NCBI GenBank assembly: GCA_012719545.1
Contig: JAAYAD010000020.1
Coordinates: forward strand, 1 to 64,000
Reading direction: 5' to 3'
Origin: Clostridiaceae bacterium
GTDB taxonomy: Bacteria > Bacillota > Clostridia > DSM-8532
Length of the DNA: 64,000 nt
Shown piece by piece: positions 38,010-47,197 of the stretch (position 1 is its first letter; each line of letters opens with the position of its first letter). The translations under genes were made by a program, and so were the position numbers. The notes below the pieces were generated by a model, which was given only the letters and a program-made list of their open reading frames with translations, was not told the DNA's origin and did not search any database.

Positions 38010-38912
38010 ATGGGCATTAATTATAATAGTTCAATTAAAGGAATAATTCTTGCGGGGGGCTCGGGCACTCGTCTTTATCCCCTGACAATGGTAACTAGTA
38101 AGCAGCTTCTCCCAATATATAATAAGCCAATGATTTATTACCCTCTTTCTATACTTATGCTTGCAGGCATAAAGGACATTCTTATAATTTCGACACCGCA
38201 CGATTTACCTAACTTTAAAAAACTGTTTGGTGATGGTTCTCAATTTGGGATAAGCCTGAGCTATGCAGAACAGCCTTCACCGGATGGACTTGCCCAGGCC
38301 TTTATAATTGGCGAGGAATTTATTGCTGGCCATAGAAGTGCAATGATACTTGGCGACAATATTTTTTATGGAAACGGGCTAAAAGGTATGCTGAAAAGAG
38401 CAGCATCCAGTAAAGCCGGCGCCACAATATTTGGTTACTATGTTGAGGATCCTGAACGCTTTGGAGTCGTAGAATTTGATGAAAATGGAAGAGCAATTTC
38501 TTTAGAAGAAAAACCTAAAGATCCAAAATCAAATTATGCAGTTACAGGTCTATATTTTTATGATGAGAGAGTATGTGAATTCGCCAAAACGCTTAAGCCC
38601 AGCGCAAGAGGAGAACTTGAAATAACCGATTTAAACCGTATTTACCTGGAAGAAGGAACTCTTGAGGTAATAACACTTGGAAGAGGGTTTGCCTGGATTG
38701 ATACAGGTACCGTTGATTCGCTTACTGAGGCATCAGACTATATTAAGACAATAGAAACCAGACAGGGACTTGTTATAGCTGCATTGGAAGAAATAGCCTA
38801 TTCACAGCAATGGATTGATAAAAAAACATTGCTGTCCTCTGCTGCCAGGTACGGCAAATCTCCATATGGGCAGCACCTTAGGAATGTCGCTGAAGGGAAA
38901 ATAAGGTATTGA
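38010..38912 (+). CDS. rfbA: Glucose-1-phosphate thymidylyltransferase
   Basis: [38 protein letters not shown]...GDNIFYG. Confidence 0.96.
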
Positions 38913-38924
38913 TGAGAGGTACAT

Positions 38925-39485
38925 ATGAAAATAACATTAACTAAAATAAAAGATTTATTCATTATAGAACCTATATTATTTGGAGATAACAGAGGTTGGT
39001 TTTTTGAGAGCTATTCAAAACTTAAACTTTCTGAGCATGGCATAGAATGTGATTTTGTACAGGACAACCATTCATTTTCTGCTCTGAAAGGAACTTTAAG
39101 AGGCTTGCATTTTCAATTAAACCCTAAAGCCCAGGCGAAACTTGTGCGGTGTACAAGAGGTTCCATCTTGGATGTAGCCGTTGATTTGCGAAAAGGATCG
39201 CCGACTTATAAGCAGTGGGTGGCAATCGAGCTCTCAGCTGATAACAAGAAACAGCTATTTATACCCAAAGGCTTTGCGCATGGTTTTGTTACACTTACCG
39301 ATAATGTAGAGGTGCAGTATAAAACAGATGAATATTATGCTCCTGAATATGACAGAAGCATAGCCTACAATGATGAGGAACTAAATGTACAATGGGGCAT
39401 AGACAATCCTATCCTGTCGAATAAAGATAGAAACGCTCCTTCACTTAAAGACAGTGACGTGAATTTTATATATCAGGAGGTATAG
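38925..39485 (+). CDS. rfbC: dTDP-4-dehydrorhamnose 3,5-epimerase
   Basis: FFESYSKLKL...VQDNHSFSALKGTLRGLHFQ...KLVRCTRGSILDVAVDLRKGSPTY. Confidence 0.96.
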   Translation: MKITLTKIKDLFIIEPILFGDNRGWFFESYSKLKLSEHGIECDFVQDNHSFSALKGTLRGLHFQLNPKAQAKLVRCTRGSILDVAVDLRKGSPTYKQWVAIELSADNKKQLFIPKGFAHGFVTLTDNVEVQYKTDEYYAPEYDRSIAYNDEELNVQWGIDNPILSNKDRNAPSLKDSDVNFIYQEV

Positions 39486-39488
39486 CAA

Positions 39489-40508
39489 ATGACCATTCTT
39501 GTAACAGGATGAGCCGGCTTTATTGGTGCTAATTTTGTCAAATACATGCTTAAACAGTATACAGAGTATAAAATAATATGTCTGGATGCTTTGACTTATG
39601 CTGGAAATATGGAAACTTTATCCGATGTTTTGGATAATCCTCAATTTATGTTTGTCAAAGGAGATATTGCAGATCAGGTCATAGTATTTAGTCTCTTTGA
39701 ACAGGAAAAGCCTGACATAGTAGTCAACTTTGCAGCTGAATCCCATGTGGATCGTTCGATTGATAACCCAAGAATCTTTTTAGAAACCAATATAATAGGT
39801 ACACAGGTATTAATGGATGCCTGCAGGAAATACGGTATTAAAAGATTCCATCAGGTCTCTACTGACGAAGTATATGGTGACCTTCCCCTTGACAGACCTG
39901 ATTTATTCTTTACAGAGGATACCCCGTTGCATACTTCTTCTCCTTATTCTGCATCGAAGGCTTCTGCTGATTTGCTGGTTCTTGCATATTACAGAACTTT
40001 CAAGCTGCCAGTGACAATATCACGCTGTTCAAATAACTATGGCCCCTATCAATTCCCAGAAAAACTTATACCGTTAATGATTACAAGGGCATTAGCAGAT
40101 CAGCCACTGCCTGTATACGGCAATGGTGAAAATGTTCGGGACTGGCTTTATGTGGAAGACCATTGTTCAGCCATTGATTTGATAATCCACAAAGGACGTG
40201 AAGGTGAAGTATATAATATTGGCGGGCATAATGAAAAGACCAATTTAGAAGTGGTAAAAACTATTTTAAGGGTATTGAACAAACCAGAGAGCCTCATCAC
40301 TTACGTTAAAGACCGGCCCGGACATGACTTACGCTACGCAATTGATCCATCGAAGATACACAATGAATTGGGCTGGCTTCCGGCAACAAAATTTGATGAA
40401 GGGATTAAAAAAACTATTGAATGGTATTTGGATAACAAACCTTGGTGGGAGCATATAGTCAATGGTGAATACCGGGACTATTATGATAAAATGTACAGCA
40501 TCAAATAA
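39489..40508 (+). pseudogene. rfbB: dTDP-glucose 4,6-dehydratase with in-frame TGA at codon 8 (39510-39512)
   Basis: ATG ACC ATT CTT GTA ACA GGA TGA GCC GGC TTT ATT GGT = MTILVTG*AGFIG; the remaining frame is intact to 40508 (VNFAAESHVDRSI, YSASKASADLLV). Confidence 0.85.
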
Positions 40509-40695
40509 TGAGCTTTTCTGGATGTTGGATTTACATACTGCCATATGTTATATAGTAGTATAGAATATATTAAGAGGCGACCACTGGTCGCCTTGCAATT
40601 ACAAGCATTAAGTTTTCTAAATACTTGTATTCTTATCAAAGAACGTATTTTGTATGTTTAGTATGTTGTTGGAGTAGAGTCTTTTAGGAGCAACT

Positions 40696-41550
40696 ATGAA
40701 AATACTTGTGACAGGAGCCAAAGGGCAATTAGGTTATGATGTAATAAAGGAACTTAATAAGCGAAAAATAGAGTGCTTGGGTGTTGACAAAGAAGATTTT
40801 GACATAACTGATAAAACAGCAACAATGTCTTTTATTGAACTCTATCGTCCAAGCAGTGTTATTCACTGTGCGGCATATAACTTTGTTGACAGAGCTGAAG
40901 ATGAACCTGAACTTTGCTTTAGAGTCAACACATCCGGTACCATAAATGTGGCAGAAGCATGTAAAAGCTGTAATGCAAAAATGCTTCATATAAGCACTGA
41001 CTATGTTTTTGATGGAAAAAAGGAAGGCCTTTACGAGCCGGATGATACAGTTAATCCGCTGTCTGTATATGGTATTTCAAAGGCTAAATCAGAGCAGGGA
41101 GTTCAGGATATATTGGAAAAATATTTTATTATTCGCACATCTTGGTTGTTCGGAACTGCGGGGCAAAATTTTGTAAAAAAAATGCTGATGCTTTCAAAAA
41201 ATAACAAGATGTTAAATGTAGTATATGACCAGGTAGGTAGTCCAACATATACCGCAGATCTGGCTCCACTATTGGTAGATATTGCATTGAGCGAAAAATA
41301 TGGAATATACCATGCAACAAACGAAGGCTTTTGCTCATGGGCTGATTTCGCAGAAGCAATTTTTAATTTTGCTAATATCAGATGCGATGTTCGTCGAATT
41401 AGCGGAACAGAATATCAGGCTAAAGCTGTAAGACCCAAGAACTGTCGTCTTTCGAAATCAAAACTGTTAAAAGCAGGGTTTGACAATTTGCCTCCATGGG
41501 AAGAGGCTTTAAAACGTTTTTTGCAGTCTGAAGGATTATGTGTTAAATAG
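40696..41550 (+). CDS. rfbD: dTDP-4-dehydrorhamnose reductase
   Basis: KILVTGAKGQLGYDV...HISTDYVFDGKKEGLYEPDDTVNPLSVYGISKAKSEQ. Confidence 0.95.
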   Translation: MKILVTGAKGQLGYDVIKELNKRKIECLGVDKEDFDITDKTATMSFIELYRPSSVIHCAAYNFVDRAEDEPELCFRVNTSGTINVAEACKSCNAKMLHISTDYVFDGKKEGLYEPDDTVNPLSVYGISKAKSEQGVQDILEKYFIIRTSWLFGTAGQNFVKKMLMLSKNNKMLNVVYDQVGSPTYTADLAPLLVDIALSEKYGIYHATNEGFCSWADFAEAIFNFANIRCDVRRISGTEYQAKAVRPKNCRLSKSKLLKAGFDNLPPWEEALKRFLQSEGLCVK

Positions 41551-44021: not shown

Positions 44022-45230
44022 ATGAGGTACATAAAAGTGAAGAACATAGTTGTGGTTGGAACAGGCTTTTCCGGGGCGGTAATAGCAAGAAAAATTGCTG
44101 AAGAATTAGATCTACCCGTAAAGGTAATTGAAAAACGCAGACATATTGCAGGAAATATGTATGATGAGATGGATGAGAACGGAATATTAGTGCAAAAATA
44201 CGGACCTCATGTCATCGTAACAAATCGCTGGTTAGTTATTGAATATCTCATGCAGTATTCAGAGATGTTTAAACACATCGTAAAGGAATTAAGTTTTATT
44301 GACGGCAAATATGTGCGTTTACCGTTTAATTTTGAAACTGTTCAGCAGCTCGTCGGCGAAAGGCATGCTGAAAATCTTATTGCTAAGTTTCGTAAAGAAT
44401 ATTGTGGACGTGACCGTGTTCCGGTACTTGAGCTTGTAAATAATCCGGACCCGGATATCTCCGCTTATGGCAATTTGTTGTTCGAAAAAGCATATCGTCC
44501 ATATTGTGCAAAACAATGGGATGTTCCTGTTGACTCATTAGATAAGTCAATAATGGATAGAGTACCCATGGCTATGAGCTATGATGAGCGATACATGAAC
44601 AAAGACTTTCAGTTTTTGCCCAAGTATGGCTTTACCGCATTGTTTAATAACATGCTTAATCATCCGAATATCTCTATTAGCCTAAATGATGACGCGTTAA
44701 ATCATATTACCCTGGATAGTGATAACAACAAAATATTCTTTGATGGAGAAGAACTGGACCTGTTGGTCTATACCGGTGCATTAGACGAGCTATTTAATAT
44801 GAAATACGGAGAGCTGCCATATCGGTCGTTAAATATCCAGTATGAGTGGTTTGACAAGGAACAAGTCTATCCGGAAAAGATAATATCATTCCCACAGGCT
44901 GATGGATATACCAGAAAAACGGAATATAAGTTTATGATGTATGATAATTCAAAGGCCAAAGGGAGTGTCATTGCTACGGAGTACCCAACCGCATATGTCA
45001 AGGGTGAGGAGCTTGCACCGTTTTATCCCGTTATAACAGACGATACAAAGAAACGCCATAATATGTATTGTGAGGAAGCAAAAAGATATAAAAATCTTTT
45101 TTACTGCGGTCGTCTGGCTGATTTTAGGTATTATAACATGGATGATTGTATTTTACATGCATTTGAAGTTTTTGAGGAAATCAAAAATTACATCAATAAG
45201 AATGGAAAAACAGGAGGAGTCGAAAGATGA
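44022..45230 (+). CDS. glf: UDP-galactopyranose mutase-like flavoprotein
   Basis: NIVVVGTGFSGAVIARKIAEE...IEKRRHIAGNMYDE...GPHVIVTN...LPYRSLNIQYEW. Confidence 0.85.
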   Translation: MRYIKVKNIVVVGTGFSGAVIARKIAEELDLPVKVIEKRRHIAGNMYDEMDENGILVQKYGPHVIVTNRWLVIEYLMQYSEMFKHIVKELSFIDGKYVRLPFNFETVQQLVGERHAENLIAKFRKEYCGRDRVPVLELVNNPDPDISAYGNLLFEKAYRPYCAKQWDVPVDSLDKSIMDRVPMAMSYDERYMNKDFQFLPKYGFTALFNNMLNHPNISISLNDDALNHITLDSDNNKIFFDGEELDLLVYTGALDELFNMKYGELPYRSLNIQYEWFDKEQVYPEKIISFPQADGYTRKTEYKFMMYDNSKAKGSVIATEYPTAYVKGEELAPFYPVITDDTKKRHNMYCEEAKRYKNLFYCGRLADFRYYNMDDCILHAFEVFEEIKNYINKNGKTGGVER

Positions 45231-47197
45231 AGCAGCCTGGGAATGCTAATATGCAGCATAAAACACCTGTTTCCGTGTCAAAGACAAATAGTTCCGACAA
45301 TGCTGTAAAGAGAATAGCGATTTATGTTATATATGACAGGGATGGAATTCTTGACGGTTTTCGAAAGTATTATTTGGAGGAGCTCCGTAAGGTAACTGAT
45401 TATATAGTTGCTGTTGTCAGTGGTACAATAACTCCGGAAAGCCGGGATGAATTGGAAGAATTAGCTGACGATGTTTTTGTCCGGGAAAATAAGGGGCTTC
45501 TTGCCGGCAGTTGGATTGACGGTATTAAGCATATAGGCTGGGACACACTGTACAAGTATGATGAGCTGTTAATGCTCAATGATAGTTTTTTTGGTCCGTT
45601 TTTTCCACTTACCGAAATGTTTAGTGCAATGGAAAAGTCAGATGCTGATTTTTACGGCGTTATGAAAAATTTTGAAGAAAAAGCATATACGCAAATCGCC
45701 GGAAGACCATTAAAACACGGATGGTTCAGAGGGTCTATCTGTTATTTTTATGTAATTAGAAAAAGACTGCTGCATTCTGCTGAATTCCGTAAATATTGGG
45801 ATACACAGCCTGAAATTAAGGAACACTGGGATACAATTTTTTTTGCAGAGATAGATTTTTTTGATTATGTAAAAGATGCTGGTTTTCGTATAGATGCATA
45901 TCAAAGCGACAATTTAAAGGGTTATCTTTTTGATAACCTTAGTCACAATATGGAGAAATTAATACGATATGACAGGATTCCATTTGCACGAATACGTCCA
46001 TTCTGTACCGATATGACAGATCAAAGATTACAGATTAACTATGGAAAGGATCCTCGTCAGGCATTAGAGTATATTGATAAGTTTACAGATTATGATGTCA
46101 ATTTGATATGGGACTATATCCTTAGAACCAAAAACCTGACACATATTTATAATCAATTGCAGCTTGAATATGTAGTGCCTAAAGATAGTGTAGAAAAGCC
46201 ATTCACTTATAGTAAAAAAATTGCTGTAATACTACATATTTACTATGATGATTTAGTGGAGGAAATCGCCGGATATTGTGAGAATTTTATTCCAGATACG
46301 GACTTCTACATTACAACTACAAGTCATAAAACAGAAAAGATAATCATTGAAGAGTTTGGAAAAAGAAAGCTGAATTTTACTTGTAAAATAAGACCAAATG
46401 TCGGAGTTGCAATGTCCACATTATGGGTCACATATGCTGATATTGTTACTAAGGACGAATATGAATACATTTGCTATTTTCATGACAAGAAGTCACCTTA
46501 TACACATTTTGGTATCCATGGCGAGCAATTTGCTACGAGGTGCTATGAAAATCTCTTTGGTACAAAGGAAATTGTAAAAAATATTATTAATCTTTTTGAA
46601 GATAACCCGAGACTTGGTGTATTAGGACCACCTTTGGTTTATCATGGTGATTATTTTTCTGGTAGTTTGAGAAGTTGGGCTGGAAATTATCAGAACACGA
46701 TAAATTTAGCAAAGAAACTAGATTTAAATGTTGACATTAATCCCAATGTAGTACCTGTAGCACCATATGGAGATATGTTCTGGTTTCGCGCAAAAGCATT
46801 GAAAAAAGCAATCGGCCACAAATTAACTTATGAGGATTTTGATGTAAAGTATTCCCCTGATTGTACGTTTATGCACGCTGTTGAGCGCATATATGGTTTT
46901 GCTGCTCAAGATTCAGGATATTATTATGCTGATGTCATAAATACTGACAATGCCAGAAGTGACCTAATTAATTATCAGTATATGATATACAAGCTTTGTG
47001 AAATTATGTTGCAGAATTCTCACTATCCCTATAGTTTTGAGGCAGCCAAGGCAATCTTACGACAGTATAAAGGGCAGCCTCAGCTGGAGAACTTTGCAAG
47101 AAGATTTCTTCGAAATCTGATTAATAATCCAAAGACCCATAAGTTCGGCATGTTCCTTTGGAAGACCTATAGGAAGATATTTAAAAAGAAGCAATAG
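45227..47197 (+). CDS. Rhamnan synthesis protein F-like (RgpF)
   Basis: RIAIYVIYDRDGILDGFRKYYLEELRKVTDYIVAVVSG...YDELLMLNDSFFGPFFPL...VLGPPLVYHGDYF. Confidence 0.9.
   Translation: MKQPGNANMQHKTPVSVSKTNSSDNAVKRIAIYVIYDRDGILDGFRKYYLEELRKVTDYIVAVVSGTITPESRDELEELADDVFVRENKGLLAGSWIDGIKHIGWDTLYKYDELLMLNDSFFGPFFPLTEMFSAMEKSDADFYGVMKNFEEKAYTQIAGRPLKHGWFRGSICYFYVIRKRLLHSAEFRKYWDTQPEIKEHWDTIFFAEIDFFDYVKDAGFRIDAYQSDNLKGYLFDNLSHNMEKLIRYDRIPFARIRPFCTDMTDQRLQINYGKDPRQALEYIDKFTDYDVNLIWDYILRTKNLTHIYNQLQLEYVVPKDSVEKPFTYSKKIAVILHIYYDDLVEEIAGYCENFIPDTDFYITTTSHKTEKIIIEEFGKRKLNFTCKIRPNVGVAMSTLWVTYADIVTKDEYEYICYFHDKKSPYTHFGIHGEQFATRCYENLFGTKEIVKNIINLFEDNPRLGVLGPPLVYHGDYFSGSLRSWAGNYQNTINLAKKLDLNVDINPNVVPVAPYGDMFWFRAKALKKAIGHKLTYEDFDVKYSPDCTFMHAVERIYGFAAQDSGYYYADVINTDNARSDLINYQYMIYKLCEIMLQNSHYPYSFEAAKAILRQYKGQPQLENFARRFLRNLINNPKTHKFGMFLWKTYRKIFKKKQ

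Follow-up and report, generated by a model that had tools for sequence, protein, structure and literature searches.

The rfbB (rmlB) gene of an uncultured Clostridia bacterium carries an in-frame TGA at its eighth codon. This raises the question of whether the sampled strain has lost dTDP-glucose 4,6-dehydratase, decodes the codon as an amino acid, starts translation downstream of it, or has an ordinary glycine codon that was misread during assembly. The window is the whole stretch of DNA that was analysed, 64,000 nucleotides at the start of one contig (G000:C78:1-64000). It belongs to a 2.95 Mb assembly, a draft in 102 contigs that is probably a MAG and is estimated to be 99.99% complete and 2.14% contaminated.

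Organization of the rfb operon

The rfb genes lie on the forward strand. The intact genes rfbA (rmlA), for glucose-1-phosphate thymidylyltransferase (38010-38912; TIGR01207, 484.8 bits, cut-off 360.65), and rfbC (rmlC), for dTDP-4-dehydrorhamnose 3,5-epimerase (38925-39485; TIGR01221, 235.2 bits, cut-off 155.75), precede rfbB (39489-40508). They are followed by an intact rfbD (rmlD), which encodes dTDP-4-dehydrorhamnose reductase (40696-41550; TIGR01214, 303.2 bits, cut-off 224.05). When searched through its one internal TGA, rfbB scores 501.9 bits against TIGR01181 (cut-off 365.1), and its nearest homologs are 84% identical. These family scores bear out the initial annotation, which had identified the gene as rfbB of the rhamnose pathway and the other rfb genes as intact. 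The order rfbA-rfbC-rfbB-rfbD is common to congeners G004 and G011 and to loci L085 and L008. A foreign contig is ruled out by this order and by the nearest homologs, which belong to the same genus.

The rfbD gene is divergent, with 58-59% identity to the G004 and G011 copies (59% to G004); rfbA, rfbC, and rfbB are 77-87% identical. The rfbB-rfbD spacer is 187 nt long and contains a perfect hairpin at 40574-40594. It may be that rfbD is a replaced gene with its breakpoint directly past rfbB, and the loci compared included no closer donor. The same polysaccharide locus encodes an RgpF-type rhamnan synthesis protein (PF05045, 453 bits; 45227-47197), which likely uses dTDP-rhamnose.

The interrupted rfbB frame

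Across 39475-39512, the sequence reads AGGAGG, 8 nt, and ATG (39489), then ACC ATT CTT GTA ACA GGA TGA GCC GGC. The AGGAGG at 39475-39480 is the rfbB ribosome-binding site. The frame translates as MTILVTG*AGFIGANFVKYMLKQ... (asterisk, stop) and ends at the stop codon at 40506-40508. It contains 339 codons, of which only the TGA at 39510-39512 is an internal stop, and it is open from 39513 onward, just as the initial annotation had described the ribosome-binding site, the MTILVTG* frame, and the uninterrupted run to 40508. The catalytic motifs [ST]DE and YxxxK, as described in PMC8987622, are present in the translation as STDEVYG and YSASK. Because of the TGA at codon 8, no continuous rfbB frame contains TGxxGxxG, the dehydratase NAD motif (PMC8987622).

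No second rfbB exceeds the TIGR01181 cut-off in the 99.99% complete assembly, which answers the proviso in the initial annotation that another copy might sustain dTDP-rhamnose synthesis. The nearest paralogs are one CDP-glucose-dehydratase-like protein and two GalE proteins; all fall well short of the cut-off, and those names suit them better than rfbB does. A viral-contig scan found no second copy of the rfb locus. The gene thus has the form of a nonsense inactivation, in which an in-frame stop removes an essential part and no spare copy is available.

Codon 8 in rfbB homologs

Codon 8 could be read in 87 of the 89 rfbB homologs compared. It encodes Gly in 84 and Ala in 3, and a stop in none of the 87; the TGA recurs in none of the 89. 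The position accepts small residues only. The motif runs T6-G7-x8-x9-G10-x-x-G13, so the TGA replaces G8, the first x. It therefore lies inside the NAD glycine motif, as initially proposed, but outside its three signature glycines. The initial annotation had also placed the TGA where a GGA glycine codon was expected. The glycine is well founded, whereas the codon varies among relatives (GGA 34, GGC 29, GGT 19, GGG 3) and is GGC, GGT, and GGG in the nearest three homologs; an ancestral GGA is thus a parsimonious but unobserved state.

Age of the stop and selection on rfbB

The remainder of rfbB is undamaged. Of 136 alignment columns with at least 97% conservation among homologs, none is altered. 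From this lineage, dN is 0.134 to the outgroup L085 and 0.170 to the outgroup L008; the same two distances are 0.152 and 0.175 when measured from G004, and 0.146 and 0.154 from G011. All pairs compared are saturated at synonymous sites. There is no dN excess relative to the sister lineages and no decay that would indicate relaxed selection, although neutral evolution over even a few percent of the divergence time should have left excess amino-acid changes. The stop is therefore either very recent or absent from the organism, two of the options that the initial annotation had named. It also follows from the complete lack of decay that there is no positive sign that rfbB was ever non-functional.

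Other in-frame stops in the genome and genus

The rfbB stop is less unusual than it looks because other single TGAs occur in the genome and the genus. A search that read through stops reported 232 family matches from the same genome, and in-frame stops interrupted two of them, rfbB and the gene for an ABC ATPase on contig C21. The ABC ATPase TGA (L201:3203-3205, equivalent to G000:C21:3203-3205, forward strand) lies inside Walker A, within FFG*NGSGKT, at a position that is Arg in the three nearest homologs. As at the rfbB site, the codon before it is GGA and the two codons after it are NNC GGC. The rmlA gene of congener G006 has one TGA near its C-terminus (L202:2017-2019, on G006:C20, minus strand), within EEIAW*REFIS. 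This position is variable but is Arg in all eight closest homologs, and the gene adjoins an intact rfbB. The probability that three of three stops are TGA by chance is near 0.01, given 23% expected from codon usage. The TGA/GGA pattern is best treated as a curiosity because it is post hoc, comprises three cases, and involves differing replaced residues.

A homology scan of about 1.1 Mb of the genome, covering about 86,000 codons, yielded rfbB and the C21 ABC gene as the only convincing stops; its other stops were antisense or upstream artefacts. No further convincing in-frame stop was found in a homology scan of 0.76 Mb of G004, and a codon-composition scan of 803 kb returned only apparent neighbouring same-frame genes. 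A search of the literature on stop codons in assembled genomes found nothing useful.

Competing explanations

It is very unlikely that UGA at codon 8 is read through or recoded as Gly, Sec, Trp, or Arg to give full-length RfbB. Such decoding would suit the seemingly unbroken purifying selection on rfbB, the finding that the three single in-frame stops seen in the genus are all TGA (about 23% expected), and the placement of both TGAs of this genome after GGA in nucleotide-binding loops. Against it, the genome has no SelA and no tRNA-Sec match that reaches the cut-off, and the RNA after the TGA folds worse than its shuffles (-4.4 kcal/mol versus a mean of -7.9; z +1.5), leaving no stem-loop; selenocysteine is rejected on these grounds. 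Reassignment of UGA (tables 4 or 25) is rejected because RF2 (prfB) is present at 530 bits, TGA terminates 213 of 834 predicted ORFs, and a UCA anticodon occurs in none of the 40 tRNAs read among 41 genes (all but C27:85545-85628). The RF2 gene (L124; G000:C100:189-1229) appears as one open frame that lacks the usual in-frame TGA frameshift site. Variants of tRNA-Trp(CCA) linked to UGA readthrough have a 4-bp anticodon stem, A9C, or G24A (PMC13092985); the single tRNA-Trp(CCA) here is ordinary, with a 5-bp anticodon stem (GCGGU/ACCGC), A9, and G24, and leaky decoding by it is rejected. Ribosome bypassing at a GGA-stop is rejected as well, since the alignment shows no extra sequence near codon 8 relative to homologs, leaving nothing to bypass. 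Homologs carry solely Gly or Ala at codon 8, and the residue in the closest relatives is Gly for rfbB but Arg for the ABC ATPase and rmlA sites, so a single UGA meaning does not fit. The readthrough option raised by the initial annotation is consequently unsupported. A narrower proposal, that this genus tolerates GGA-UGA in nucleotide-binding loops through context-dependent decoding and that genes with an early TGA (rfbB codon 8, ABC Walker A) give full-length protein, is more improbable still. Equally improbable is a harmless stop with a working product from ATG 39546, which begins the sole start-codon-bearing in-frame ORF past the stop (39546-40508, forward strand, 320 aa); no in-frame ATG, GTG, or TTG lies between the TGA and this codon. 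The ORF is open and conserved and scores 465.9 bits against TIGR01181, but it is matched only from profile position 19, and no AGGAGG-like site lies upstream of it. Because profile positions 1-18 are missing, the product would, judging from the fold, have neither the first Rossmann strand nor any of the TGxxGxxG loop; the initial annotation had likewise predicted that reinitiation would remove beta-1 and this loop.

The main rival to a nonsense allele is a consensus error, which fits the data nearly as well and has an appreciable but lesser probability. Codon 8 would then encode Gly in the organism and RfbB would work, the T having come from a miscalled consensus base or from a variant of a minority strain. 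The single-letter change, the lack of decay elsewhere in rfbB, the 102-contig draft with 2.14% estimated contamination, and the failure to find an independent copy of the locus for comparison are all consistent with an error. The assembly is not generally noisy, however, given so few stops in the homology-covered sequence, where rfbB and the ABC gene stand alone. The explanation we consider probable is an isolated, very recent nonsense substitution in rfbB that abolishes dTDP-rhamnose synthesis in the sampled strain. The gene has a stop, an intact remainder, a single copy, and none of the known recoding machinery at its disposal; we infer that the base is real and that the phenotype is rhamnose-negative.

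Consequences of a nonsense allele

If codon 8 mutated to TGA in the sampled strain, translation initiated at 39489 would be terminated by RF2 once a 7-residue peptide had been made. Reinitiation at 39546, if any, would yield a protein with neither the first Rossmann strand nor the NAD loop. Without the dehydratase, dTDP-glucose would remain undehydrated and no dTDP-L-rhamnose would reach the rhamnan-type (RgpF-like) machinery of the locus, so the polysaccharide encoded around rfbB would contain no rhamnose. The predicted outcome is a rhamnose-negative surface-polysaccharide allele.

Of 14 genomes in the genus, 4 have an rmlA match above the cut-off and a fifth has a truncated one, so the rhamnose pathway is optional at the genus level. 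Salmonella in culture survives when this activity is lost (PMC12136496), whereas in mycobacteria RmlB is essential (PMC8987622). For annotation, the rhamnose pathway of this genome should be recorded as broken at rfbB, or the assembly flagged for a check, and the in-frame TGA should not be read as recoding. If real, the stop is one more surface-polysaccharide loss allele in a natural population.

Comparison with known systems

The locus resembles characterized RmlB/RfbB (TIGR01181; PDB 6bi4, 1bxk, 1kew) in its family score through the stop, its STDE and YxxxK motifs, and its rfbACBD operon, and structures including 6bi4 and 1bxk span nearly the whole rfbB frame. It differs in that table 11 reads codon 8 as a stop. 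With the UGA-to-Gly code of Absconditabacteria and Gracilibacteria (table 25) it shares a TGA at a Gly position, but here TGA is a normal stop, RF2 is present, and no tRNA(UCA) was found. Selenocysteine insertion likewise involves an in-frame TGA, but SelA, a tRNA-Sec over the cut-off, a stem-loop, and homologs with Cys at the site are all lacking here. Recent nonsense pseudogenes of surface-polysaccharide genes offer a further parallel. The rfbB allele is putative and could be a sequence error, unlike these pseudogenes, but it shares with them a single stop, an otherwise intact gene, and a dispensable sugar pathway.
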